Below are positions 9,705-48,100 of a stretch of DNA of 64,000 bases, piece by piece. The DNA is from a virus. Position 1 is the first letter of the stretch. The number at the start of each line of letters is the position of its first letter. The translations under genes and the position numbers were made by a program. Under the pieces are notes generated by a model. That model was not told the origin of the DNA. It searched no databases and saw only the letters and a program-made list of their open reading frames with translations. The stretch is taken from IMG/VR virus record IMGVR_UViG_3300044960_000921, positions 78,955-142,954 of that record; one strand, 5' to 3'.

Positions 9705-10514
9705 TTAGACGGCGATGATTGTTCGATCTTTGCGAGGAATATTCATAGATCCAAGATACTCAAGTACGGTCAGGTTGTACTTCGAGGAATTGCACGGCTT
9801 GCAGGCCGGGACAATGTTATCTGGGCTGTTATCCCCGCCTCGTGTAATCGGTGTCATGTGGTCCATTGACAACCTGCCAACCATGCTTTCGTGCTGGAGG
9901 CAGTAGGCACAGTGGTAATTGAAGTACTCGAGGATCTCCTGCCACTCGTCGGCAGTGCATTTCCCCGATGCGGCAGCCCGCTTGATTCGAGCAGAATTGG
10001 CCCATGCCTGGAGCTTTTCGGGTTGCTCCCTCTGCAGTTTCTTTTTGTATTCAGCAATTTTGGGCTTGCTTCTCTTGTAGTACTGCTTTGCCCGCGCCAT
10101 CTTGTTCTGGCGAAATTCAGGGTCTGAGTTGTAACGCTCACGCTGCTGCCTGCTGATTTTCCCTTTGTTGACCCGGTATGCAGCGATTAGACGTGCTTTG
10201 CGAGAGGCGTGGTTCTTGTAGTAGGTCTTTTTGGCAATCAGTTTCTTCTTCTCAGGATTGGCGCGCTGCCATTCCTCGGCCTTTTGCTTCTCACGTTCCG
10301 CATTCCGAACGTACCAGCTGCGTCTTTGCGCCTTGGCGCATCCCTTGCAATTGGATTTCAGGCCATCCTTCTCTCGCCGCGCCCTGGAAAATGCTGCCGC
10401 TAGCTTTGTCTCTTTGCAAACCGAACAGCATTTCTCGGCCGGATACTGTATTTCCGAATCAGAGCGACTCGCGTTTCGTTTTGCGCTATGCCTGTTGCGT
10501 TTTTCCATACTCAA
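9705..10514 (-). CDS. HNH homing endonuclease
   Basis: 269 residues. An N-terminal zinc cluster (CCSVCKETK...CKGCAK) is followed by a long lysine/arginine-rich helical region with repeats (KNHASRKARL, YNSDPEFRQNKMARA, YYKRSK). The C-terminal HNH nuclease has HCAYC, SMDHMTPITRGG (the DH), then NIVPACKPCNSSK with the final N and zinc cysteines. It sits free-standing between sheath and tube genes and its base composition is lower in GC than its neighbours. It is the second intruding endonuclease in this operon. Confidence 0.9.
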   Translation of the reverse strand: MSMEKRNRHSAKRNASRSDSEIQYPAEKCCSVCKETKLAAAFSRARREKDGLKSNCKGCAKAQRRSWYVRNAEREKQKAEEWQRANPEKKKLIAKKTYYKNHASRKARLIAAYRVNKGKISRQQRERYNSDPEFRQNKMARAKQYYKRSKPKIAEYKKKLQREQPEKLQAWANSARIKRAAASGKCTADEWQEILEYFNYHCAYCLQHESMVGRLSMDHMTPITRGGDNSPDNIVPACKPCNSSKYNLTVLEYLGSMNIPRKDRTIIAV

Positions 10515-14956: not shown

Positions 14957-15964
14957 TTACGGACGCTGCACGGCCACGATCGAGTGGGCATAGGAACTGC
15001 CCTTCGCGAGAACCGCGTCGAACAGCACGGCGACGAACTTCTTCTGGAGGTCGCCGACCAGGCCGAGCTGGTACAACTGCGGGATGCCGCCGTTGTGCTT
15101 GCCGCCGTCGATGTACGGGCGGGTGACAAGCGACTCGCTCAGGATGGCGCAGAAGTAGTTCTTGTACCCGGCCGGGGGAGCCGAGAACCCGTAGGCCGAG
15201 CCCGTGGCGCTGGGCAGGAACGGGTCGTTCGAGATGATCGGAAGCAGGCCCGCCTGGGTCTGGATCGCGTTCACCGTCACGCCGGCCACGACCACCTCGC
15301 TCAGCTTGATGCTCGCCGCCTTCGCCTCGCGGTCGATGAGGTCACCGACTATGGGGTTCACGTAGACGGCGGTCGGGCGGACGACGTAGCTGGTGTTCGC
15401 CACCATCGCGGCCACCTCGGCCTTGATGCCGTCGATGATCGACGCGCCGGGGGCGATGGTCGCCTGGCGGGTGATCTGGTTCAGCAGGCCGTAGTACTCG
15501 ATGCTGGTGGGCGAGGCGTAGGACGTGTCGGCGCCCTGCCAGATCTTCTGGCAGCGGACGACCTGGATGCCGTTGATGATGTCGTTGACGTCCTTGGCCT
15601 CGACGTAGCTGAACTGGCCCTGCTGCTGGGTCACCTGCACGTCGAACAGGCCGAAGTTGGACCCGTTCACCATGCCCTTGATGTAGATCACCTTCTCGGT
15701 GCGGGTCGGGCCGCCGGCAGAGTAGCTGATGCTACGGGGATCGGTGAACGCGCCCTGGGCGATCGCCGACTGCTCGAAGAAGCGGTGCGGGTGGCCATTG
15801 GCGGGCTCGGCCTTGATGCGCTCCATGATCGGAGAGGAGCGGCGTACGAGGTCGAAGATCTCGGTCTCGTACATGTTGACTTCGATGGCGCCGTTGCCGA
15901 GGAAGTCGGCGGCGGCCTGCATGGAATCGACGAACTGCGCGCCGTGTTCGGGTTTGATGGTCAT
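14957..15964 (-). CDS. Major capsid protein
   Basis: 335 residues, right length for an HK97-fold capsid protein. It follows the protease/scaffold gene by 31 nt, as expected. It has an N-terminal helix (GAQFVDSMQAAADFLGNGAIEVNMYETEIFDLVRR), an E-loop-like region, and a long A-domain (IDGIKAEVAAMVANTSYVVRPTAVYVNP, then QAGLLPIISNDPFLPS and the terminal YKNYFCAILSESLVTRPYIDG). No separate decoration domain is visible. It is made after processing by the upstream protease. Confidence 0.8.
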   Translation of the reverse strand: MTIKPEHGAQFVDSMQAAADFLGNGAIEVNMYETEIFDLVRRSSPIMERIKAEPANGHPHRFFEQSAIAQGAFTDPRSISYSAGGPTRTEKVIYIKGMVNGSNFGLFDVQVTQQQGQFSYVEAKDVNDIINGIQVVRCQKIWQGADTSYASPTSIEYYGLLNQITRQATIAPGASIIDGIKAEVAAMVANTSYVVRPTAVYVNPIVGDLIDREAKAASIKLSEVVVAGVTVNAIQTQAGLLPIISNDPFLPSATGSAYGFSAPPAGYKNYFCAILSESLVTRPYIDGGKHNGGIPQLYQLGLVGDLQKKFVAVLFDAVLAKGSSYAHSIVAVQRP

Positions 15965-15995: not shown

Positions 15996-16520
15996 TTAGA
16001 CGGCGAGCAGGCCGGCCTTGGAGAGGGCGTTCTTCAGCTCGATGCGCTGGACCGGCTCCAGGTTGGCGGAGGCGAACGCCTTGTCGACTTCGCCGAGGGA
16101 GAGCTTGGCGTTCTCGCCAGGCAGGGTGAGGCCGCTGCGCGCCAGCAGGGCGGTCACATGGGGCGTCAGCGTCTTGCGCTCGGCGGGCTGGGCGTTCTTC
16201 GCCGCCGCGGCCTTCAGGTCGGCGATCTGCGTCTCCTGGGCCGCGAGCTTGTCCTCCAGCTCCTTCACCTTCTTGTCGCTGGCCTCCTTCTCGGCGGCGG
16301 CCTTAATGTCGGCAGCGGCCTTCTCGTCCGCGGCTTTCTTCTCGGCGGCGGCAGCGGCGCGAGCCTCCTCGGCCTTCTGCTTCTCCTCCGCCGCGGCGGC
16401 CTCGATGGCGTCGATGCGCTTGTTCACGGTGGCGAAGCCCGCATCCAGGGCGTCCTTCATCGCCTTTTCCTGGGATTCGGCCTGGGCCTTGAGCAGTTCC
16501 TTCAGTTCATTGATGTCCAT
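15996..16520 (-). CDS. Scaffold protein from internal start
   Basis: In-frame ATG 16518-16520 (residue 331 of the long gene) is preceded by GAGGAG six nt upstream, a near-ideal ribosome binding site inside the coding sequence. The product of 174 residues is the coiled-coil scaffold alone (MDINELKELLKAQAES, then long E/K/A heptads, ending LKNALSKAGLLAV). This is the lambda C/Nu3 arrangement, in which a protease-scaffold fusion and free scaffold come from one gene. Confidence 0.75.
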   Translation of the reverse strand: MDINELKELLKAQAESQEKAMKDALDAGFATVNKRIDAIEAAAAEEKQKAEEARAAAAAEKKAADEKAAADIKAAAEKEASDKKVKELEDKLAAQETQIADLKAAAAKNAQPAERKTLTPHVTALLARSGLTLPGENAKLSLGEVDKAFASANLEPVQRIELKNALSKAGLLAV

Positions 16521-17510
16521 GGTGTTCTCCTCGGCCTGCGCGGCCAGTGATGTGGTTGAGTATGCGGCCTTGTCCTTGTAGAGGATCGCAGCCCCGGTGA
16601 AGACGCAGTCCGTGATCTCCCACGAAGCCGCGGTGGTGTCCTTCACGTAGATGTTCCGCATCTCGTAGGAGAAGCCGAGCAGGCTACGTTCGGACCGCAC
16701 GCGGGCGACTTCATCGGGAAAGTCGGCCGCGTATAGGAATCCTTCGATGTGGATGGCGTCCCCCTCGATGGTGGCCGCCGTGATGGTCCCGATCTTGCGC
16801 TTGACGTCGTGGCCCGCCAGGTCGGAGGCGAGGTCCACGGGCATCCCCAGGAGCGTGGGCAACGCGCGTTCGGCAGCCGCCCGCGTCAGGATGACGCGGC
16901 GGTTCTTGCTGCCCTCGGGCGGCCGGTCGCTCGGCTGGTCGATGCGGGTCAGGATGCCCTTGAAGGGATGCTTGTTCGGGTGGCCGGGCGTGTGGGGCAG
17001 GATGAGTGCCATCGCCTCGATGCGGTCCACGACTTCGAGGGATGCGGCCTCCAGCTTCACGAAGCCCTTCTCCTCGGCCCAGTGCTCGTTAAGCGGCTCG
17101 TGGATCTCGGGGCCGAACACCAGGTCGCCATCGAAGGGGACAACCTTCGAAAGGTCCACGTCTCCGGCGTCGTAGGTGATGGTGACGTGGGGGGAGTAGC
17201 TGTCGCCGTGATCCCACGACGCACCCATCTGGCGGGCTTCCTTCCAGCGGGCCTCCAGTTCGGGGCAGACGAAGTGCAAGACGATGGCGCCCTTGGCCCC
17301 GAGCGGCGTGACGAATCGCCCGCCGGTGCTCGCGGCCATGTTTCCGCCCTGGGGGCGGAACCAGACCGGGGCCCGGCTGTAGACGATGGTCGCGTGGAGC
17401 TCGTGCTCGGGAACGAGGTTTGTGAAGCCCTGCGACTTCGCCCAGGCGGCGAAAGCGGCCGCCGAATCGGGGGTCAGGTTACGGCGGACGTACAGTCCCT
17501 GCTCGGACAT
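15996..17510 (-). CDS. Acb1-prohead protease-scaffold fusion
   Basis: 504 residues in three parts. (1) About 1-145 matches the anti-CBASS phosphodiesterase Acb1: GLYVRRNL, EHELHATIVYSRAPV, a conserved LELEARxK-like helix, then SPHVTITYDAGDVDLS and EPLNEHW. The two H-x-T motifs are H39-A-T41 and H108-V-T110. Acb1 (T4 gp57B family) hydrolyses the cyclic oligonucleotide signals of CBASS. (2) About 165-320 is a prohead serine protease with candidate H234 (AGHDVKRKIG) and S281 (LLGFSYEM). (3) From M331 is a coiled-coil, alanine/lysine/glutamate-rich scaffold. Position just upstream of capsid fits the protease-scaffold parts. Acb1 fused to head genes (portal-linked) is known; I do not know of it on a protease. 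Confidence 0.85.
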   Translation of the reverse strand: MSEQGLYVRRNLTPDSAAAFAAWAKSQGFTNLVPEHELHATIVYSRAPVWFRPQGGNMAASTGGRFVTPLGAKGAIVLHFVCPELEARWKEARQMGASWDHGDSYSPHVTITYDAGDVDLSKVVPFDGDLVFGPEIHEPLNEHWAEEKGFVKLEAASLEVVDRIEAMALILPHTPGHPNKHPFKGILTRIDQPSDRPPEGSKNRRVILTRAAAERALPTLLGMPVDLASDLAGHDVKRKIGTITAATIEGDAIHIEGFLYAADFPDEVARVRSERSLLGFSYEMRNIYVKDTTAASWEITDCVFTGAAILYKDKAAYSTTSLAAQAEENTMDINELKELLKAQAESQEKAMKDALDAGFATVNKRIDAIEAAAAEEKQKAEEARAAAAAEKKAADEKAAADIKAAAEKEASDKKVKELEDKLAAQETQIADLKAAAAKNAQPAERKTLTPHVTALLARSGLTLPGENAKLSLGEVDKAFASANLEPVQRIELKNALSKAGLLAV

Positions 17511-17515
17511 GGGAC

Positions 17516-18016
17516 CTACAGGACCGCGAGCAGGCTCGTCAGGTCGGCCTTGAGCTGCTCGTCACCGGCCGAGGCGATGGCCGCCGGGAGGGCGTTCCTG
17601 AGGTCGCCCAGGATCAGCTCGGCCTTGTGCAGGGCGTGCACCGCCTCGGGAGCGCCGGTGGCGACGATGGCACGGACGGCAAGAGTGAGGCGGTTGGCGA
17701 GGTCGGTGGGCGCCGGGGGGATGACGGGGGCCGACGGGAGCGGGGTCGATTCCGCCTCATCGGATGCCTTCGCAGCTGCGGGCTCGGTAGCGAGCGCAGG
17801 CGCGGCTGCGGTTTCGTCGTCCGATTCCTCAGCCTTCGCGTCTTCCGGATTCTGTTCGGCGGGTTCATTCACCGCGTTGTCCCCCGGTTGCTCATTGGAG
17901 GCCTCCACCTGTTCCAGAGCGGGTGCTTCCTGGGCGGTGGTCTCGACCGTGCCCTCTACCGCCTGGGACTTCTCGGCCTTGGTTTCGGTGGGCTTCTGGG
18001 TGCTTTTCTTCGACAT
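17516..18016 (-). CDS. Acidic, low-complexity head-operon protein
   Basis: 166 residues. The N-terminal two-thirds are disordered and rich in E, A, P, T, S (MSKKSTQKPTETKAEKSQ onward). The last about 60 residues form a helix-rich domain (DLANRLTLAVRAIVATGAPEAVHALHKAELILGDLRNALP). It lies between the Acb1-protease and the glycine-rich gene with 5 nt spacing; not recognised. It could be a capsid accessory or a decoy for host factors. Confidence 0.55.
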   Translation of the reverse strand: MSKKSTQKPTETKAEKSQAVEGTVETTAQEAPALEQVEASNEQPGDNAVNEPAEQNPEDAKAEESDDETAAAPALATEPAAAKASDEAESTPLPSAPVIPPAPTDLANRLTLAVRAIVATGAPEAVHALHKAELILGDLRNALPAAIASAGDEQLKADLTSLLAVL

Positions 18017-18808: not shown

Positions 18809-20131
18809 TCAGGTTCCTTTCTTGCTCGGTTTCGGTTCGTCGCCCGCGCCGTCCTCGGCGGGGCCGTCTTGTTTCCGCTCCTTCGCCGCGGCGGCGGTGG
18901 CGATCTGGATGTCGGCGAAGGTCATATCGCCCCATTTGTGCTCCGCGGGCGGCTCGCCCAGCCGGTTGCGCACCTCGTTGGGGGTGTAGACGTTGTTCTT
19001 GATGTAAATCTGGTGGATCTCCGCCTCGCGCTTCTCGTCCTCGCGGTCGAGGCCCAGAAAGCGGAACTCGACCTGGCTGAACCCGAGCCGCCCCTCGATG
19101 GCGTCCCGGTTGATATGGCTGGCCAGCAGACCGGCCCACGGCTTGATCGCGTGGTCCCAGTCGCGGGACTCGGCCACCTCGGCGGTGTTGCGGTTCACGT
19201 CCCGCTCGACGCCGAGGTTCTGCGGCGAGATGTCGAATGCGGTGGCGATCTCGGTCTTCAGGAACTCCTGCCACTTCAGGTATAGGGCCTCGTCGCCGTC
19301 GGCGGTGAGCTTGACGGGCTCGATGCCGTCGCCGCTCAGGATGGGCATCTTGCCCTGGCCTTCGATCTCGTTGGTCCAGTAGGTCCGGAAGGTCGCAAGT
19401 TGCTCGGGTGTGGCCTTGCCAAGGTTGAGCAGGGTCGTGGGCCGGGCGTTCGTCGCCACGTTGCCCGCGTACTCGCCCACGCCCAGCAGGCGGGAGACGG
19501 TCGTGAAGGCAATCTCCAGCGGCCCGCACCCGAAGGGGTGGGCCGTCGACGGGTTCGGCGCGATGTAGATCAGCTCGTCCGCCAGCAGGTCGATGCCGTT
19601 ACCCGCGGTCAGCATCCCGTAGCCCGGCACCTGGCAGTATTTCGCCTCGCGCCGGTCGCCGGTCCAGCCCGCGTAGATCTGCACGGAGAGGGCATCCACC
19701 GGGTAGAGCCAGAGCGGGCGGCTCGCGTCGCCGCCGAGCTGCATCTCGATGGCCCCGGCCCCGAGCATGAGGTCGGTGATGACCTTCTCGACCAGCGACC
19801 GCCAGCTGTCCTCGTTGTTCGGGCTGCGGAGGCAGGTGGTCACCAGTTGGCACTGGCGGCGGATCTCGGAGTTGTCCGTGACGCCCTTCTTGGGCACCAC
19901 CTCCCATTCGAGCTGGGCGATGGGGTTCTTGATCGTGTTGATCGCCCGGCGGGCGTAGGGCGTCGTCGAGAACGCCCGGAGATTCCAGGGCGTCGGCTTG
20001 AAGACGGGCGTGTTGTGCGCGACCCGCTGCCCCGACATGATCTGCATCAGCCGGGGGTAGACCTCGGTGTCGCGCTGCGGCTCATTCCGCCTGCGGCCCA
20101 GTCGCTGCTTGAAGCTCGTGAACAATCCCAT
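18809..20131 (-). CDS. Portal protein, HK97/SPP1 type
   Basis: 440 residues. Portal features: FKPTPWNLRAFSTTPYARRAINTIKNPIAQLEWEVVP, then VTDLMLGAGAIEMQL, DELIYIAPNPSTAHPFGCGPLEIA, FDISPQNLGVERDVNRNTAEV and a C-terminal NNVYTPNEVRNRLGEPP. It lies right after the large terminase. The portal is the dodecameric ring through which DNA enters the head. The C-terminus is charged and disordered (PAEDGAGDEPKPSKKGT). Confidence 0.9.
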   Translation of the reverse strand: MGLFTSFKQRLGRRRNEPQRDTEVYPRLMQIMSGQRVAHNTPVFKPTPWNLRAFSTTPYARRAINTIKNPIAQLEWEVVPKKGVTDNSEIRRQCQLVTTCLRSPNNEDSWRSLVEKVITDLMLGAGAIEMQLGGDASRPLWLYPVDALSVQIYAGWTGDRREAKYCQVPGYGMLTAGNGIDLLADELIYIAPNPSTAHPFGCGPLEIAFTTVSRLLGVGEYAGNVATNARPTTLLNLGKATPEQLATFRTYWTNEIEGQGKMPILSGDGIEPVKLTADGDEALYLKWQEFLKTEIATAFDISPQNLGVERDVNRNTAEVAESRDWDHAIKPWAGLLASHINRDAIEGRLGFSQVEFRFLGLDREDEKREAEIHQIYIKNNVYTPNEVRNRLGEPPAEHKWGDMTFADIQIATAAAAKERKQDGPAEDGAGDEPKPSKKGT

Positions 20132-20146: not shown

Positions 20147-21706
20147 CTAAATCGACGCGAAGTGGAAGCCGGAACCTCCCTGGGCATAGTTGAGCACGAG
20201 GGCCTCGGCGTAGTCCGGCGAGGGCACGCCCCGCATCGCGAGTTGTTTCTTGGTCTCGATGACGATCTTGCCCCCCTCGTTCCTGAACCACTTCGGGAGC
20301 GAGACCTGGCCGATCAGCTCGTTACAGTCGGGCAGCAGGATCCATTCGTCCTCCGAGTGCGGCACGCCGTCCTCGTAGCCCTCCAGGTAGCGGACGTGCT
20401 CGTGCGTGGCCTTGAAGGCGTCGCGCATCGCCCACCAGAGCTGGGCCTTGAGGTTGCCGAACCACTCTGAGGCCATGCGGCCGTCGGGCATCAGGGTCTC
20501 GGTCGGCGGCACGCCCACGTTGATCGGGCTGACGGTGACGCCTTCGGTGTTCGCATGCACCAGCGTGCTGGTGACCGTGTTGCCGACGCCGGCGGAGTCA
20601 TAGTTGACCTGCCGGACGCCGAGGCTCCGGGCCACGTCCAGGGCGTCGTGGGTGACGTGGATGTTGTCCACGGTCTGCCAGAAAGTCGGCATGACCACGA
20701 CCGGCCCGAACTTGGGGACCAGCACGGACTTGGCCCTACCGGCGCCGACGTCGAGCCCCGCCGTACCCGGCCCTTGCGGCTGCCGTTTGAGCGCCCTGGC
20801 CAGCTTCAAGGAGGATTCCACCCACTTTGCCGGGATGCAGATGCCCTCGACCGAGGCCGCGTAGTCGATGTCGTACTCGGCCGCCCAGGTGGCCGGAGTC
20901 GAGGAGAGCTCCCGCTGCTTGGCCTCGGCCCAGGCCGCGTCCTTGCGGGGGTCGTCGGACCAGTGGAAACGGAAGACCGGGATGTGGCCGGAGTGCCGCT
21001 TGCGGAAGAAGACGTTGCCGGTGCCGTTGACCGAAGACGCCCAGATCCTTGTGTTTGCGTTCGCCACGATGGCGGCGTCGACCTTCTCGGCGTGCTCGAT
21101 GAACGCGCCCTCGTCCACGACGTAGAGCGTCGAGCGCCCGCCGCGGCCCATGTTGTCGCCCGCCTCGCCGGTGATGGCGTTCCCGTTGGCCGGGTTGATC
21201 AGGCGCATAAAGTTGTCGTGCTCGGCCCGGTTCAGGCCCGCCGGCAGCATCCAGTGCGGCAGGCGGTCCAGCATCAGGCGGATCTTGCCGAAGATGCTGT
21301 CCGGGTCGCCGATGCGGTCGACGTAGACCTCCTTGCGGCTGCCGAACGTCGTCTTGAAGCCGGGTGCGAAGAGCCACTTGTGCAGGGCGTAGCCCGCCGC
21401 CACCCAGGTCCAGCCCACGTCGCGGGATTTCTCGACCAAGCCCTCCTGGGAGGCGGCCACGCGGTCATCCAGCCAGCGGATCAGCTCCTCCTGGCGGGGG
21501 AACAGGTCGAAGGGCAGGTAAGCGGGCAGGCCCTTGGCCGCGCCGCGCGGGTCGTAGGTCCAGGCGAAGGTGTTGAACCACCACACCGGGTCCTTGGCCG
21601 CCCGCGCCATGGCGATGGCCTGCAGTTCGGGGTCCCGGTCGAGCTTGTCGATGATCTCCAGGCGCCGGATGAGGCTCTGCTTCAGTTCATCCGTGCCGAA
21701 GGCCAT
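20147..21706 (-). CDS. Terminase large subunit
   Basis: 519 residues. The ATPase has an atypical Walker A (EKSRDVGWTW, about 92-101) and Walker B (LYVVDEGAF, D198-E199). The C-terminal RNase H-like nuclease has D319 (GLDVGAG), D370 (YDSAGVG) and the late acidic residue in SPDYAEALVL. It packages DNA into the prohead and cuts it. Unusually, the small terminase gene is not adjacent but 0.67 kb upstream, separated by a plus-strand mini-operon and its promoter region. Confidence 0.92.
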   Translation of the reverse strand: MAFGTDELKQSLIRRLEIIDKLDRDPELQAIAMARAAKDPVWWFNTFAWTYDPRGAAKGLPAYLPFDLFPRQEELIRWLDDRVAASQEGLVEKSRDVGWTWVAAGYALHKWLFAPGFKTTFGSRKEVYVDRIGDPDSIFGKIRLMLDRLPHWMLPAGLNRAEHDNFMRLINPANGNAITGEAGDNMGRGGRSTLYVVDEGAFIEHAEKVDAAIVANANTRIWASSVNGTGNVFFRKRHSGHIPVFRFHWSDDPRKDAAWAEAKQRELSSTPATWAAEYDIDYAASVEGICIPAKWVESSLKLARALKRQPQGPGTAGLDVGAGRAKSVLVPKFGPVVVMPTFWQTVDNIHVTHDALDVARSLGVRQVNYDSAGVGNTVTSTLVHANTEGVTVSPINVGVPPTETLMPDGRMASEWFGNLKAQLWWAMRDAFKATHEHVRYLEGYEDGVPHSEDEWILLPDCNELIGQVSLPKWFRNEGGKIVIETKKQLAMRGVPSPDYAEALVLNYAQGGSGFHFASI

Positions 21707-36706: not shown

Positions 36707-39493
36707 GTGCTGCGTACACACTGGATTACCGATGCTGCTGCTGCGAAGGCCTACTATCAGGCATCGGACTATTACGCGCAGGCGCAGGGCGACTGGCTCG
36801 GCAAGGGCGCCGAGGCCCTCGGGCTGGTGGGGCAAGCTCGGAAAGAGGACTTCGAGCTGCTCTGCGACAATCTGAACCCGCTCACCGGCCAGCCGCTCAC
36901 GACCTATACCCGCGACGGCAGGCGGGTCGGCATCGACCTGAACTTCAACAGCACGAAGTCGGTGGGCATCGCGCGCGAGCTGGCGGGGCCGGACAACCGG
37001 GGCGACGATCGGATCGAGTGGGCGCACCGCGAGGCCGTGGCCTATGCGATGGGTTATGTCGAGGCCGACATGCGGGCCCGCGTCCGGGCCGGGGGCAAGA
37101 ACGAGGACCGGGTCACGGGTAACATGGTCGCCTTCCGGGTGACGCACCGGGATACCCGGGTCAGCGGCCAGGATGGTTTGCCCGACATGAGCCTTCACGA
37201 CCATGTGGTCGTCTTCAATGCCACCGAGGATAAGTTCGAGGGCAAGTGGAAGGCCGCCGAGATCGGGCAGATCAAGCACGACGCCCCGTACTACGAAGCC
37301 ATCTACCACAACCGACTGGCGTCGAACCTTCGGCAACTCGGCTACGGCGTTCGGAAGAAGGACAAGGCTTTCGAGATCGAGGGCATCTCCGACGAGCTGG
37401 TCCGGAAGTTCAGCCGCCGCCGGGCCTACATCGACCAGGTGGCGGAGAAGCTGGGCATCACCAGCCCCGAGGGCCGGAACACGCTTGGGGCAACGACCCG
37501 GCTGGGCAAGGTCAAGGAACGTGCGGACGACCTCAACCGCTACTGGGTCAGCCGCCTGACTGACGTGGAGCGCCAACAGCTTACCGGGCTGATCGGCAAG
37601 GCCGGGTACGAGGGGGACGTAAAGGCGGCCGTCGAGTTCGCCATCGGCCACCTGTTCGAGCGCAAGAGCGTGGTGGACGAGAAGCGGGTCTACGAGACGG
37701 CGATCCGCCACGGCATCGGGGCCGTGACGCCGGAGCTCGTCCAGGAGGAGGCGAAGCGGCAGGGCCTGCTCACGAAGGACGGGGAGGCCACGACTCGGCT
37801 GGTGCACGCGGAGGAGCAGCGGGTGATCGGGTTCGCCAGGGATGGGCGGGGGACGTGCAGGCCGATGGGCAACGAAAAAGGCCGCCCGGATTCGAATGAG
37901 CGGCCTTTGATCTCAAAAGAAAATGGCGTATCGGGGTTAGAGCTTCATAACGGCCTCGACGGTTTCGGGTTCAACGAAGACGCTCAAATCGTAGGAGGCC
38001 ATGGTGCCACATCTGCGACGGTGGCGCAACCGAAATCTGAACTCTCCCCCGATCAGGCCGCCATCGCCCGCCACGTCTGGACCTCCCCCGACCGGGTCAT
38101 CCTGATCCGCGGGGCCGCAGGCACCGGCAAGACCCACACGATGAAGGCGACCATCGCGGGCATCGACCGCCCGGTGGTCGTCCTGGCCCCCTCCGCCGAG
38201 GCCAGCCGGGGCGTGCTCCGCAAGGAAGGCTTCTCCGAGGCCGACACCGTGGCCCGGTTCCTGATCGACGAGAAGTTCCAGGAGAAGGCCCGGGGCGGCG
38301 TGATCTGGGTGGACGAGGCCGGGCTGCTGGGCATCCGCCAGGTGCGGGAGGTCTTCGACGCCGCCGAGCGGCTGGGGGCCCGCGTCGTCCTGCAGGGCGA
38401 CCGGAAGCAGCACGGCTCGGTGGAGCGCGGGGCGACTCTGCGGGTACTCGAGGAGTTCGCCGGGCTGCCCGTGGCGGAGTTGAAGGATATCCGCCGCCAG
38501 CAGGGCCGCTACAAACAAGCGGTGGCGTCCCTGGCCAAAGGCGACCTTCTGAGCGGGTACGACCAGCTCGAGGCCCTGGGCTGGGTCAGGGAGGCCCAGG
38601 ACAACGCCCCGCTGGTCGAGGACTACCTGGCAGCGCTCGATGCCCGGAAGTCCGTCCTGGTCGTCGCCCCGACCCATGTCGAGGGCGGCGAGATCACGGC
38701 CGAGATTCGGGCCCGGCTCAAAAAGCGGGGGCGTATCGCCAGCGAGGGCAAACAGATTGGCGTCCTCGTTCCCCTTGGCTGGACGGAGGCCGAGCGGGGC
38801 GACCTTGAGCGATACGAGGGCGGCGAGGTGCTCCAGTTCCACCGGAACTCGGGCACATTCCGGGCCGGGGACCGCGTCCGTGTGCTCGACTGGAAGCCGG
38901 GCGACCGATTCGCCAAGGCGTCGCACTTCTCGGTGTACACGCCGTTAACGATTGAGGTTGCGGCCGGGGATCAGGTCCGCATCACTGCCAACGGCAAGAC
39001 GAAGGACGGCGAGCACAAGCTGAACAACGGGGCGACCTACCGGGTCAAGGGCTTCACGAAGGACGACGACATCGTCCTGGAGAACGGCTGGGTCGTGGGC
39101 AAGGACTTCGGCCACCTGGCCCACGGCTACGTGACCACCTCGCACGCGAGCCAGGGCAAGACCGTCGACCGCGTGCTGATCGCCATGGGGAGCGAATCCC
39201 GCCCGGCGATGGGCGCGGAGCAGTTCTACGTCTCGGTGTCGCGCGGCCGGGAGCAGGCGACGATCTACAGCGACCTGACGCCGGCCGAGCTGCGCGAGGC
39301 CATCCAGAGGGCCGATTCCCGCAAGTCTGCGACGGAGCTACTCCGGCCGGTGCCGGTTCCAGTGCGGCCGAGGCGGCGGGTGAAGACGCTCGCGGAGCGT
39401 ATGCGACTGGCGTTCCAGCAGTTGCGCGAGAAGGCGGCCAGTGCTATGCCGGTGGCGAGGGAGAAGGAGCGGAGCTATGCAAGGTCTAGATGA
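36707..39493 (+). CDS. MobF-type relaxase-helicase (TrwC/TraI-like)
   Basis: 928 residues, start GTG 36707. N-terminal relaxase domain: AKAYYQASDYYAQAQ with tyrosines Y16, Y17, Y22 and Y23 as nicking candidates, then QGDWLGKGAEALGLVG; the three-His metal site is H147 and H164-D-H166 (LHDHVVVFNAT). The C-terminal RecD/TraI-like helicase has Walker A RGAAGTGKTHT (about residue 469) and Walker B GVIWVDEAGL, then motifs through TTSHASQGKTVDRVL and FYVSVSRGR. Between the domains is an atypical linker at about 385-445. It is shorter than TraI of F (1756) but like TrwC (966). It would nick oriT, pilot the strand and unwind it. Confidence 0.92.
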   Translation: MLRTHWITDAAAAKAYYQASDYYAQAQGDWLGKGAEALGLVGQARKEDFELLCDNLNPLTGQPLTTYTRDGRRVGIDLNFNSTKSVGIARELAGPDNRGDDRIEWAHREAVAYAMGYVEADMRARVRAGGKNEDRVTGNMVAFRVTHRDTRVSGQDGLPDMSLHDHVVVFNATEDKFEGKWKAAEIGQIKHDAPYYEAIYHNRLASNLRQLGYGVRKKDKAFEIEGISDELVRKFSRRRAYIDQVAEKLGITSPEGRNTLGATTRLGKVKERADDLNRYWVSRLTDVERQQLTGLIGKAGYEGDVKAAVEFAIGHLFERKSVVDEKRVYETAIRHGIGAVTPELVQEEAKRQGLLTKDGEATTRLVHAEEQRVIGFARDGRGTCRPMGNEKGRPDSNERPLISKENGVSGLELHNGLDGFGFNEDAQIVGGHGATSATVAQPKSELSPDQAAIARHVWTSPDRVILIRGAAGTGKTHTMKATIAGIDRPVVVLAPSAEASRGVLRKEGFSEADTVARFLIDEKFQEKARGGVIWVDEAGLLGIRQVREVFDAAERLGARVVLQGDRKQHGSVERGATLRVLEEFAGLPVAELKDIRRQQGRYKQAVASLAKGDLLSGYDQLEALGWVREAQDNAPLVEDYLAALDARKSVLVVAPTHVEGGEITAEIRARLKKRGRIASEGKQIGVLVPLGWTEAERGDLERYEGGEVLQFHRNSGTFRAGDRVRVLDWKPGDRFAKASHFSVYTPLTIEVAAGDQVRITANGKTKDGEHKLNNGATYRVKGFTKDDDIVLENGWVVGKDFGHLAHGYVTTSHASQGKTVDRVLIAMGSESRPAMGAEQFYVSVSRGREQATIYSDLTPAELREAIQRADSRKSATELLRPVPVPVRPRRRVKTLAERMRLAFQQLREKAASAMPVAREKERSYARSR
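37871..37908 (-). terminator. Antisense terminator inside relaxase linker
   Basis: Minus strand: perfect 9-bp stem AAAGGCCGC/GCGGCCTTT (37877-37885 and 37900-37908) followed by TTTTTCGTT. It reads as linker codons on the plus strand, yet is a classic terminator for the antisense micro-frame at 37937. Confidence 0.55.
37937..38002 (-). CDS. Antisense micro-ORF in relaxase linker
   Basis: 21 residues (MASYDLSVFVEPETVEAVMKL), ATG 38000-38002 to TAA 37937-37939. The composition looks protein-like, and 29 nt after the stop a perfect terminator with a minus-strand T-run follows. No clear Shine-Dalgarno. The whole segment 37855-38035 has lower GC at third positions than the rest of the relaxase, consistent with an inserted small gene read through as a linker. 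Tentative. Confidence 0.3.
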   Translation of the reverse strand: MASYDLSVFVEPETVEAVMKL

Positions 39494-44139: not shown

Positions 44140-45171
44140 TCAGCTCGGCCCGCCGCACCGCTTGTAAGCTCCAGCGGGCGGCATCCACGTCTCGCCGTAA
44201 GCGAGGAAGAACATATCCTTCGTGAAGGCGTCCGGCGACATGGCCAGAGCCCGGAGTTCCGAAGGCTTGTCCGATACGAACTCCCTGCCTCGCGCGGCGA
44301 TCTCCTCTACGCTCTGGCCCTTCCGGATCGTGCTGCGGAAGTCACGTTCGAGCCCAGCGATCCGCTTAAACCGCTCGGGGGCGATGGTCTTGACGCTCGC
44401 CCACTGGTCGCTGTCGCCGAAAATGCAAGCGAGGCAAGACGTTCTGCCCCAGCCGAGCTGATAGGCCGGGTGCGGGCGGATGTTCCAGCGCCGGATGATG
44501 TCCCAGACCTGTTCCTCGCTCCAGTCGATGACGTTCCGCCATTGGTGCACCGTCCGGCTCTTGGTATTCGTACGGTGCGGCTCGGCCTCGGCGTATTTCG
44601 ACCTGGCCGAGGACTCCTGCCGCCGTTCGCCGGTGACGACCAGCACCTTCTTGCCCTGGTAGGCCGGGTCGTTGGCCAGGACTCGGGCCATCACGTCAAT
44701 CTTGAGGTAGGCCGAACACCAGCGGACGCTCAGGTCGGCGCTGACCTGGGGGAATTTCATCCGCGTGCCGGCCGTCTCCCGCTTTGTCGGCAGGCTGACA
44801 CGCTCGCCGCTTCGCTCGTAGGCCACCGGGGCGGTCGGTACGTTGTCGCGTAGCATCTCCCGTACGAACCCGCCCTCGCGCCAGGAGAAGACGACCGGGA
44901 TGCCGAGGGCCTCGGCCGTCGCCTGTACGTAGGCCCGGGTGCAGGGCCAGTCCATCAGGGCCTCGCCCTGGCCGTCGATGTCGTGGTGGTGAAGCTCGAT
45001 CTTCGAGGGCGGGACGCCGCGTTCGAGCAGGTCCAGCAGCGCGGCGAGGCTGTCCTTGCCGCCGCTGTACCCCAAGGCGATCACATCGTACTGATCGAGC
45101 GGGAGGAGCTGGTGGGTTTGCGGTTCGTCTGGCGAAACGTCGAAGAGCGTGCCTTGGACGGGCCCGTTCAC
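44140..45171 (-). CDS. PAPS reductase-like PP-loop enzyme
   Basis: 343 residues. PP-loop ALGYSGGKDSLAALLDLLERG, RWCSAYLK, GERRQESSARSKY, and CLACIFGDSDQW (cysteine cluster) match the phosphoadenosine phosphosulphate reductase-like family found next to phage DNA-modification genes. It activates sulphate-type substrates, so a sulphur-containing base modification or phosphorothioation-like role is possible. It precedes an N-MTase and C5-MTase with 4-nt overlaps, making a three-gene unit. Confidence 0.75.
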   Translation of the reverse strand: MNGPVQGTLFDVSPDEPQTHQLLPLDQYDVIALGYSGGKDSLAALLDLLERGVPPSKIELHHHDIDGQGEALMDWPCTRAYVQATAEALGIPVVFSWREGGFVREMLRDNVPTAPVAYERSGERVSLPTKRETAGTRMKFPQVSADLSVRWCSAYLKIDVMARVLANDPAYQGKKVLVVTGERRQESSARSKYAEAEPHRTNTKSRTVHQWRNVIDWSEEQVWDIIRRWNIRPHPAYQLGWGRTSCLACIFGDSDQWASVKTIAPERFKRIAGLERDFRSTIRKGQSVEEIAARGREFVSDKPSELRALAMSPDAFTKDMFFLAYGETWMPPAGAYKRCGGPS

Positions 45172-46208
45172 GCAGCGACCACGATGTCGGCGAACAGCCC
45201 GGCATCCTTCCTCAACCGTCGCTCCGCGATGCCAACGTATTCTGGGTTTAGTTCAATCCCGATGCAGTGCCGCCCGTGCCGGTCAGCGACCAGCCCGGTT
45301 GTCCCCGCGCCGAAGAACGGATCGAGGACGGTGCCGCCCAGTGGGGAACCGGCGAGGATGCACGGCTCAATTAACTCAGGCGGGTAGGTGGCGAAGTGGG
45401 CTTCGGAGAACGGCTTGGTGGCGACGGTCCAGACGGTTCGCTTGTTCCTCGTCGTGCCCTCCCACGGGACCGACCCGCAGACGTTTGCTCCCGAACCTTC
45501 CGGGCAGCCACGCTCCGTGCCGGACTTCCGTTTATTGTTCCCGCTTCGCTTGACCCGAGCGCCTTGCTCTCGTCCGGCCCGGTGATAATTGCCATGCGAT
45601 CCGGGCCCAGTGTCCCATCCGTCCGGCATCTTTGTGTCGTCAGGGTTCCAGTTGCACGGCTCAGCGATGGCCTTGGCGTCGTAGTGGTACTGCTCGCTCT
45701 TGGTCAGCAGGAAGAGATACTCGTGCGACTTAGTCGGCCGATCCGTGACGCTCTCCGGCATCGGGTTCGGCTTCGACCAGATGATGTCGCTGCGGAGATA
45801 CCAGCCATCCTCTTGGAGGGCGAAGGCAACCCGCCACGGGATACCGACGAGGTCTTTAGGCTTGAGGTCTGACATGCCAGCAGCCGCTAGCAGTTGTCGC
45901 TGCGTGTGGGTGCGGTCATGCCGTTGTCCGTGCTTCCCCTGGTGCCCTGTGCCGCCTTGGCTTGCATAGCTGTCCCCGAGGTTCAGCCAGAGGGTGCCGT
46001 CGTCTCGGAGGACCCGGCGAACTTCGCGGAAAACGGCGGTGATTTGCTGGACGTACTCGGCTGGAGACCGCTCAAGGCCGAGCTGTCCGGCGATTCCGTA
46101 ATCACGAAGTCCCCAATAGGGCGGGCTGGTCACGCAGGTATGAACAGACTGGCTGGGAAGGGCCTGCAGGAGCGAGAGACAGCAGCCGGTGAGGATGGTG
46201 ATCGTCAT
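45168..46208 (-). CDS. N4/N6 DNA methyltransferase (group beta)
   Basis: 346 residues. Motif IV TSPPYWGLRDYG is near the N-terminus and motif I DPFFGAGTTGLVADRHG is C-terminal, so the order is that of the beta group (D/N-PPY). SPPY is frequent in N4-cytosine enzymes but N6-adenine is possible. Between them is KDGTLWLNLGDSYA and the target recognition region. Overlaps both neighbours. Probably protects the element against restriction. Confidence 0.88.
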   Translation of the reverse strand: MTITILTGCCLSLLQALPSQSVHTCVTSPPYWGLRDYGIAGQLGLERSPAEYVQQITAVFREVRRVLRDDGTLWLNLGDSYASQGGTGHQGKHGQRHDRTHTQRQLLAAAGMSDLKPKDLVGIPWRVAFALQEDGWYLRSDIIWSKPNPMPESVTDRPTKSHEYLFLLTKSEQYHYDAKAIAEPCNWNPDDTKMPDGWDTGPGSHGNYHRAGREQGARVKRSGNNKRKSGTERGCPEGSGANVCGSVPWEGTTRNKRTVWTVATKPFSEAHFATYPPELIEPCILAGSPLGGTVLDPFFGAGTTGLVADRHGRHCIGIELNPEYVGIAERRLRKDAGLFADIVVAA

Positions 46209-48100
46209 GCCGCCCTCGCCACCGGAGCGGTTTCAAACTGCGCCCTGGCGACCGCCGCCGCGATCGGCGGGCAGACCGAGTTGCCGCACATGCGGACCTG
46301 GGCGGTCTTCGAGAGCGGCTTGCCGTCGATGACGGGGCTAATCAGGTAGTGCTCGGGGAAGCCTTGGGCCCGGTAAAGCTCTGGCGGGGTCAACATCCGC
46401 AGGCCGATGTCGACGATCACGTAGTCCTGGCCGTGGACGGTGACCAAGCCGAAGCGGTCCTTGCTCGTGACGGTATGCAGCGGCTCCTGAAGCCGGGGGT
46501 CCTGGTCGGTGCCGAAGTACTTGATCAGGAATGCCCTGACCTCGGCGTAGTGAAGGCCGCCCGCCTGGACTGTGGCCAGCGGCTGGTCCACGGCCTGACC
46601 GTGTTTGCACGTCCCCTTCAGCTTGAGCAGGTGAGAAGCGACCAAGCTGTGGTGATCGGTCGCCGTAACGGTGCCCATCGGCTCAGGCAGGTCGCTGCCG
46701 ACGACGCCGGTGTAGTGCTTGGCCAGGAAGGCGGAGACCAGAGCGGCCCGCGAGTCGGTCGTCATCGTGTTCATCGGCTGTCCAGCGGGGCGAGGCTTCG
46801 CCGAATACGCGGGGCCGCCGGTGCCGACGAGGAGAGGGGTCACCAGAGCGTGCTTTGCCGCCCCGGCGACCACAGTGCCCAGCGGTTTATCGAGGCCCGG
46901 TACTCGGGGTGCTTGGCCCTCCCGCTCACCGTACCCGGTCTGTATCAGGGTCGGGCAGATGATTGCAGCGTCGGCTTTGGCCGTGATCGTCTGGTAGGGC
47001 TGGTCTGGCGATCGCTCCGGTGACTGCCCGGCCCGGCCACCGACGCCAGCCAGGAACGGCGTGCAAATGGCATAGTCGCCGGACGCGGTGACCGTATGAA
47101 GCGGCTCGCCGACCGAATGCTGGCCTTTGCCCCGTCGCTTGCCGTTCTTGTCGACGTCTCCGTGCGCCGTCCGCGCGATGAACGGCGTGCAGAGCGCCTT
47201 CTCGCCGCGATTCGCCCCGGTGACGGTGCGAAACGGCTCGTCGAGCGGCTCGACGCGGTCTCCGCCGTGGTGGGTCAGGTTGACGATGAACGGCTCCTTC
47301 GCCTCGATGACGAAGCGGCGGATGCCAGCGGCTATCCGGCGGAGTGTATTCTCGGCCAGCGGTCGCTGCCGCTCGAAGATGCTCGGGCACGGGAGCGACC
47401 AGTCGATGCACTCGGCCGCCGTCCGCCAAGGCTTCAGGTTGATGCTGAATAGATCCTGCTGGATCTTCTTCGGGTCTCCGTGCGTCGGCTCGGGCCATCG
47501 GATCGGCAGTCCGTCGCAACGGGCGACGATAAAGAGTCGCTTGCGAATCGTTGGCGTTCCGTAGTCCGAGGCCCGAAGCTCTTTCGGTTCGACACGGTAG
47601 CCAAGGTTTTCGAGCTGTGACTTCCAGCGGCGGAAGGTCTGGCCCTTCCGCAACGGGCAGGGCTGGCCATCTGGGAGAACCGGTCCCCAGTCTTGAAACT
47701 CCTCGACGTTCTCCAGGATGATGACGCGGGGTTTGACGGCCTTCGCCCAGCGGATCACGACCCAAGCTAGGCCGCGGATCTTCTTGCTGACAGGCTTGCC
47801 GCCCTTGGCCTTGGAGAAGTGCTTGCAGTCCGGGCTGAACCATGCGAGCCCGACCGGGCGACCCGCGCAGGCCTCGATCGGGTCGACGTGCCAGACGTCC
47901 TCACAATAGTGCTTGGTCTCCGGGTGGTTCGCGGCATGCATCGCAATTGCTTCTTTATCGTGATTAATGGCAATATCGGGCGACCGGCCAAGGGCCATGC
48001 CTATGCCGAGCGATGCGCCGCCGCCACCCGCGAAGTTGTCAACGATCAGTTCGTCAGGGGCTATTGCAAGCGGTGGTGGATTGCTGTAAGCAGGTGTCAT
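46205..48100 (-). CDS. C5-cytosine DNA methyltransferase with repeat-rich target region
   Basis: 631 residues. Motif I DNFAGGGGASLGIGMALG, motif IV FSPDCKHFS (the PC is replaced by PDC, so the catalytic cysteine is in SPDCKHFS), then motif VI-like VILENVEEF and a C-terminal AQGFPEHYLIS with CGNSVCPP (motif X). Residues about 260-560 hold eight repeats built around (E/Q)P-x-x-T-V-T-A-x(6)-A-L-x-T-P-F-L. Length is larger than usual (about 330-420) because of these. It protects against C-specific restriction or marks phage DNA. Confidence 0.88.
   Translation of the reverse strand: MTPAYSNPPPLAIAPDELIVDNFAGGGGASLGIGMALGRSPDIAINHDKEAIAMHAANHPETKHYCEDVWHVDPIEACAGRPVGLAWFSPDCKHFSKAKGGKPVSKKIRGLAWVVIRWAKAVKPRVIILENVEEFQDWGPVLPDGQPCPLRKGQTFRRWKSQLENLGYRVEPKELRASDYGTPTIRKRLFIVARCDGLPIRWPEPTHGDPKKIQQDLFSINLKPWRTAAECIDWSLPCPSIFERQRPLAENTLRRIAAGIRRFVIEAKEPFIVNLTHHGGDRVEPLDEPFRTVTGANRGEKALCTPFIARTAHGDVDKNGKRRGKGQHSVGEPLHTVTASGDYAICTPFLAGVGGRAGQSPERSPDQPYQTITAKADAAIICPTLIQTGYGEREGQAPRVPGLDKPLGTVVAGAAKHALVTPLLVGTGGPAYSAKPRPAGQPMNTMTTDSRAALVSAFLAKHYTGVVGSDLPEPMGTVTATDHHSLVASHLLKLKGTCKHGQAVDQPLATVQAGGLHYAEVRAFLIKYFGTDQDPRLQEPLHTVTSKDRFGLVTVHGQDYVIVDIGLRMLTPPELYRAQGFPEHYLISPVIDGKPLSKTAQVRMCGNSVCPPIAAAVARAQFETAPVARAA

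Follow-up and report, generated by a model that had tools for sequence, protein, structure and literature searches.

Acb1 of phage T4 cleaves cyclic di- and trinucleotides, by which CBASS is blinded (PMC9117128). In the 64,000-nt stretch of viral DNA analysed here (the window), a domain assigned to Acb1 is joined in one reading frame to a head maturation protease and a scaffold, which raises the question of what an enzyme acting on immune signals would do on the machinery of head assembly.

The fusion gene and its Acb1 domain

The fusion gene (15996..17510; minus strand, as all window features given below unless marked otherwise) is an uninterrupted ORF of 504 amino acids, located exactly where an earlier note on this DNA, made from the sequence alone, had placed it. 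Its product comprises an Acb1 domain (residues 4–146; 17073..17501), a linker (residues 148–172; 16995..17069), a head maturation protease domain (residues 173–325; 16536..16994) and a coiled-coil scaffold region (residues 331–504; 15999..16520). The succession of Acb1, prohead protease and scaffold, likewise read by that note, finds support in profile matches, in the predicted structure and in homologues. The AlphaFold model, calculated with 40 aligned sequences as input, has a mean pLDDT of 82.6, with block means mostly above 90 in the Acb1 part and values below 50 for residues 151–162, a linker segment predicted to be disordered. Full-length homologues are present in a prophage of Limnoglobus roseus PX52 (loci L002 and L029 are the same) and in another Gemmataceae genome (L037); between the latter and the window protein the fast-diverging linker retains 39% identity. 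A misassembly, or two genes read as one, would be the trivial explanation of the fusion. Nothing was found in its favour, the frame being open and free of stops, and as the identical junction recurs in the complete, independently assembled L. roseus chromosome (NZ_CP042425.1) and in a third genome, an assembly or frame artefact is ruled out for all practical purposes.

The surrounding genes constitute a head module in the order terminase large subunit (20147..21706; PHROG 6.6e-25), portal (18809..20131; PF04860 5.7e-48), two small genes, fusion and putative capsid protein. The portal carries no Acb1. The probable major capsid protein (14957..15964) has no profile match and is assigned by its position directly downstream of the protease-scaffold, a place also occupied in L. 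roseus and in a further family member (L003). A gene of 166 amino acids (17516..18016) directly precedes the fusion; its stop lies 5 nt before the fusion ATG with no Shine-Dalgarno sequence in between, and the corresponding gaps in the two full-length homologues are similarly short. Judged from this spacing, translational coupling of the two genes appears possible. An Rfam search of the window gave no match.

The identity of the Acb1 domain, claimed by the earlier note, is firmly supported. Residues 4–146 match PF23474 (E=2.1e-43, 148 bits, model positions 1–143 of 144), well above the curated cut-off of 27 bits, and the crystal structures of Acb1 from phage FBB1 are matched at the sequence level too. 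Foldseek returned 7t26 as the best PDB match of the modelled domain (E 1.8e-10, TM 0.82 by target length); no better non-Acb1 match emerged and no different fold is predicted. The two H-x-T motifs were found at the residues named before and are conserved in close homologues. Alignment with T4 57B equates H39-A-T41 (17388..17396) with T4 H44/T46 and H108-V-T110 (17181..17189) with T4 H113/T115. The substrate lid residues E138 and W144 (17079..17099; T4 E141/W147) are invariant in four aligned fusions and T4, and Y7 aligns with T4 Y12. All seven T4 residues Y12, H44, T46, H113, T115, E141 and W147, whose catalytic and ligand-binding roles are taken from Hobbs et al. 2022 (PMC9117128), are thus retained in the four fusions of the same protease family, the window included. 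The base-stacking residues W74 and F107 of T4 are changed to T68 and H101; they were not counted as Acb1-defining because both positions vary also in other fusions of the family. Compared with the Acb1 of T4 57B and of Erwinia phage FBB1 (7T26/7T27), the window domain therefore belongs to the same Pfam family and fold and shares the HxT/HxT tetrad, Y12, E141 and W147, whereas W74 and F107 are not conserved and Acb1, a free protein in T4 and FBB1, here forms the N-terminus of a head protease-scaffold.

Nei-Gojobori estimates of dN/dS among the window, L. roseus and L037 genes amount to 0.12–0.32 for Acb1, 0.17–0.30 for the protease and 0.42–0.72 for the scaffold. The value of Acb1 is as low as that of the protease and below that of the scaffold. 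These estimates are rough because synonymous distances are high; the Acb1 frame is nevertheless, by this measure, clearly constrained by purifying selection. As far as sequence comparison can tell, the domain is an Acb1 with intact active-site residues, from which the hydrolysis of cyclic nucleotides is inferred.

Protease family and probable nested scaffold start

The earlier note had read the second part as a prohead protease with H234 and S281 as key residues, which holds for the fold and both residues. The putative catalytic residues H234 (16809..16811) and S281, within an LGFS motif (16668..16670), are invariant in 20 homologues. Foldseek searches of the PDB with the protease model gave T4 gp21 (5jbl) and the herpesvirus/HCMV assemblins as best matches with a probability of 1.00, and prohead proteases are among the matches in a comparison with viral models; the TM-scores of these matches are modest (0.3–0.5). 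In contrast, no Pfam protease family, Peptidase_S78, S78_2 and DUF2213 included, matched this part, the NCBIfam search yielded nothing useful for it, and the PHROG head maturation protease matches are weak (E=0.0036 and 0.0058). As curated-family profiles fail while the fold matches, we regard the protease, on the basis of its modelled structure, as a separate family with the assemblin/gp21 fold.

In phage lambda, the scaffold Nu3 is produced from a start nested within the gene of protease C. A comparable signal is found in the window: an AGGAG Shine-Dalgarno sequence (16527..16531) lies 6 nt before the in-frame ATG at codon 331, immediately ahead of the scaffold region, for which the model predicts long helices at residues 333–387 and 401–439, in line with the coiled coil previously proposed. 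A Shine-Dalgarno sequence of at least four matching bases precedes an in-frame ATG just past the protease in 18 of 19 family members, compared with 33 of 233 other in-frame ATGs (p=3e-13); this p-value is overstated, because it counts non-independent homologues and rests on the best of the nearby Met codons. As the flanking amino acids differ (EEN, EQE, GDN, GES), conservation of the signal seems to act on the DNA itself. The internal ATG probably yields the scaffold as a separate product as well, although this product itself is inferred, and by analogy to lambda C/Nu3 two products are deduced, a minor one comprising Acb1, protease and scaffold and a major one consisting of the scaffold. T4 gp21, herpesvirus assemblin and lambda C-Nu3 share with the fusion the protease fold, the succession of protease and coiled coil and the (here putative) nested scaffold start signal, and differ by the absence of Acb1. 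A GTG at codon 151, which would start a protease without Acb1, was rejected: its AGGAG is present in the window, weak in L. roseus and absent in L037.

The search for further proteases of the window's family gave 21 viral contigs and one genome contig. Most of the other members carry DUF6582 as N-terminal module, and two (L003, L026) have none. A 1038-residue protein (L046:3750-6863) combines a weak PBECR1-like region, a Mu F-like minor head domain, Acb1, a same-family protease and a scaffold. One further locus, which ends inside the protease (L027:4182-5258), has an N-terminal Nudix hydrolase (PF00293 9e-17) and DUF6582 on a same-family protease; here too, an enzyme that cleaves nucleotides is attached to a head protease. 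In a survey of 392 sampled Planctomycetota genomes for Acb1, Limnoglobus alone was positive.

Acb1 carriers in other phages

A scan of viral contigs with an Acb1 alignment detected at least 578 relatives, of which the best 80 were kept and 76 ORFs scanned with Pfam, so that the following counts are no unbiased census. Within this best-80 sample, the commonest fusion is to the C-terminus of portals, with the Pfam portal families found on 47, 15 and 4 of the 76 ORFs. Pfam protease families are found on six (S78_2 on four, S78 and DUF2213 on one each), and about 10 of the 76 are protease fusions if L046 and three ORFs with a C-terminal PHROG common to L079 (L051, L111, L117) are added, again among the best 80 of at least 578 relatives. 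Acb1 precedes proteases of the S78 (L054), XkdF/S78_2 (L072, L077, L119) and DUF2213 (L084) families. As in the window, Acb1 is thus located ahead of a head maturation protease; these proteases, however, belong to other families, lack the scaffold of the window's family and their Acb1 domains occupy separate places in the Acb1 tree. Related and unrelated Acb1-protease fusions together rule out a fusion unique to the window phage.

In the tree of Acb1 domains, six changes of the protease label are required, four of which are forced by well-supported branches, while the deep branches are weak. These label changes imply that Acb1 switched between the protease and other carriers more than once, and, with the reservation due to the deep branches, we infer from the tree that Acb1-protease fusions arose several times in unrelated phages. 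Repeated origin lifts the arrangement above a curiosity. In the loci examined, DUF2213 proteases account for 27 and Mu F-like proteins for 28 of the 90 ORFs just downstream of the Acb1 ORF. Whatever protein carries it, Acb1 is encoded close to where portal and protease genes meet in the head operon. This suggests that Acb1 is, in many tailed phages, a passenger of the head module on portal, protease or minor head protein and not a free protein.

Such carriers also suit a different reading, in which the Acb1 fold, taken over by the head machinery, is inert and serves only structure or assembly: it is found on portals, on minor head proteins and on proteases alike, and in phage Pam3 it belongs to the portal of the virion (8HDS). 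An inert domain would, however, hardly account for the conservation of the catalytic tetrad and the ligand residues under purifying selection, nor is it needed by the close protease relatives without any Acb1 (L003, L026), and we consider it very improbable. The permanent, C-terminal fusions to portals, of Pam3 and many other phages, resemble the window protein in binding Acb1 covalently to a head-module protein and differ from it in that the window carrier is a maturation protease with Acb1 at its N-terminus. The enzyme Acb1 and its attachment to head proteins (portals in public sequences, one virion structure) can be considered as known. The maturation protease as carrier, as deduced here from gene sequences, appears to be new; the open-access literature searched contained no description of Acb1 fused to a protease or a portal.

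Several single loci may be added. One ORF (L114:1233-3824) unites portal, Acb1 and a Mu F-like domain, and its Acb1 is nearest to that of the window outside the three close protease fusions. Acb1 also resides within very long phage ORFs of 1500–2780 amino acids (L048, L075, L105). Matches annotated as 'phage prohead protein/protease' on Rhizobium plasmids were discarded as extra fusions, being actually stand-alone Acb1 genes of ca. 138–146 amino acids; those on Rhizobium rhizogenes plasmids (L038–L040) have no adjacent phage head genes. A head-module location of Acb1 is relevant to the timing and site of counter-defence and also to the way annotation misses such enzymes, the public label 'phage prohead protein' for stand-alone Acb1 copies being an example.

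Proposed role in head assembly

Prohead proteases and other head proteins have been reported, second-hand, as triggers of CBASS: PMC12409349, citing Richmond-Buccola 2024, mentions an interaction of a phage prohead protease with a CBASS sensor, and the title of a 2026 preprint cited in PMC13424991 states that phage proteases activate CBASS. We propose with modest confidence that the fusion tethers an active Acb1 to the head protease, so that the cyclic di- and trinucleotides of CBASS are destroyed late, while heads assemble, whereby activity, target, timing and the advantage of the tether are all inferred. In this scenario a flexible linker would connect an Acb1-type 2H phosphodiesterase with the head-maturation protease, itself joined to the scaffold. 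The protein would be made late, together with the head genes, and its Acb1 part would hydrolyse the cyclic nucleotides when and where the head assembles, the stage at which, according to the mentioned second-hand reports, prohead proteases or head proteins switch CBASS on. Since Acb1 is fused to the protease, the antidote would be coupled to the protein class that triggers the alarm and both would appear together. Protease and scaffold would keep their normal job, most of the scaffold probably being made without Acb1 from the internal start. A tether to the protease is not required, since most Acb1 fusions, among the best 80 of at least 578 relatives, are to portals. A covalent link between enzyme and trigger, repeated in unrelated phages, would single out head assembly as the decisive stage, and a phage with trigger and antidote in one polypeptide offers a simple test case for CBASS sensing.

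The window is taken to derive from a planctomycete phage, with Gemmataceae as the presumed host family. The L037 genome also encodes a CBASS operon with CD-NTase (1.3e-148), SAVED endonuclease effector (2e-148) and E1-E2, on a contig other than that of the fusion. A SMODS-type CD-NTase was not found in L. roseus, itself a fusion carrier, and is rare among the Gemmataceae genomes searched (7 of 95). This scarcity of CBASS cyclases would fit an active 2H phosphoesterase with a target outside CBASS, for instance RNA ends bearing a 2′,3′-cyclic phosphate or the cyclic trinucleotides of a different signalling system, as would the weaker fold and Pfam matches to LigT/2′-5′ RNA ligase relatives and the PHROGs name RNA ligase for the family. 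The best sequence and fold matches are nevertheless specifically Acb1, and the adenine-reading E138 and the lid residue W144 are kept; a non-CBASS target is accordingly judged unlikely, without being negligible.

The tethered enzyme might alternatively act from the virion. Acb1 would be packaged in the prohead, freed at the linker by the protease, kept in the virion and injected, thereby disarming CBASS from the first minute of the following infection. Release on head maturation or action within the assembling head, as the earlier note had suggested, is inferred. IPI of T4 and DarA of P1 are injected proteins that counter restriction. For DarA, cleavage by the prohead protease and co-injection are on record (PMC12810830), and both proteins exemplify a counter-defence protein tied to head and head protease (PMC12810830), though they target restriction and their packaging is shown, unlike that of the window fusion. 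This reading is favoured by the fast-changing linker, predicted in part to be disordered, and by T4, in which acb1 (57B) directly adjoins ipI, an internal virion protein gene (L130:1592-2411). Protease and scaffold are, however, usually removed from the head, neither a packaging signal nor a cleavage site was identified in the fusion, and a pre-loaded enzyme is less needed if CBASS responds late, which makes delivery by injection improbable in our view. As a wider, rather doubtful generalization of the proposed assembly-stage role, the N-terminus of head proteases might be a general dock for enzymes destroying nucleotide signals of immunity, such as Acb1, on this and several further protease families, and the Nudix hydrolase of L027, so that the CBASS-triggering class would carry its own antidote, possibly self-cleaved and virion-delivered.

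The window contains further genes of interest outside the head module. A TrwC relaxase-helicase (36707-39493 (+); PF08751 8e-62) shares the 143-kb virus record with the head genes, which suggests a phage-plasmid or else a conjugative element that has integrated. Two adjacent DNA methyltransferases of the N6/N4 and C5 types are encoded at 45168-48100 (minus strand). Finally, an ORF between tail genes (9705-10514, minus strand) contains an HNH-like motif, KCTADEWQEILEYFNYHCAYC, judged by eye only, and is probably a homing-type endonuclease.
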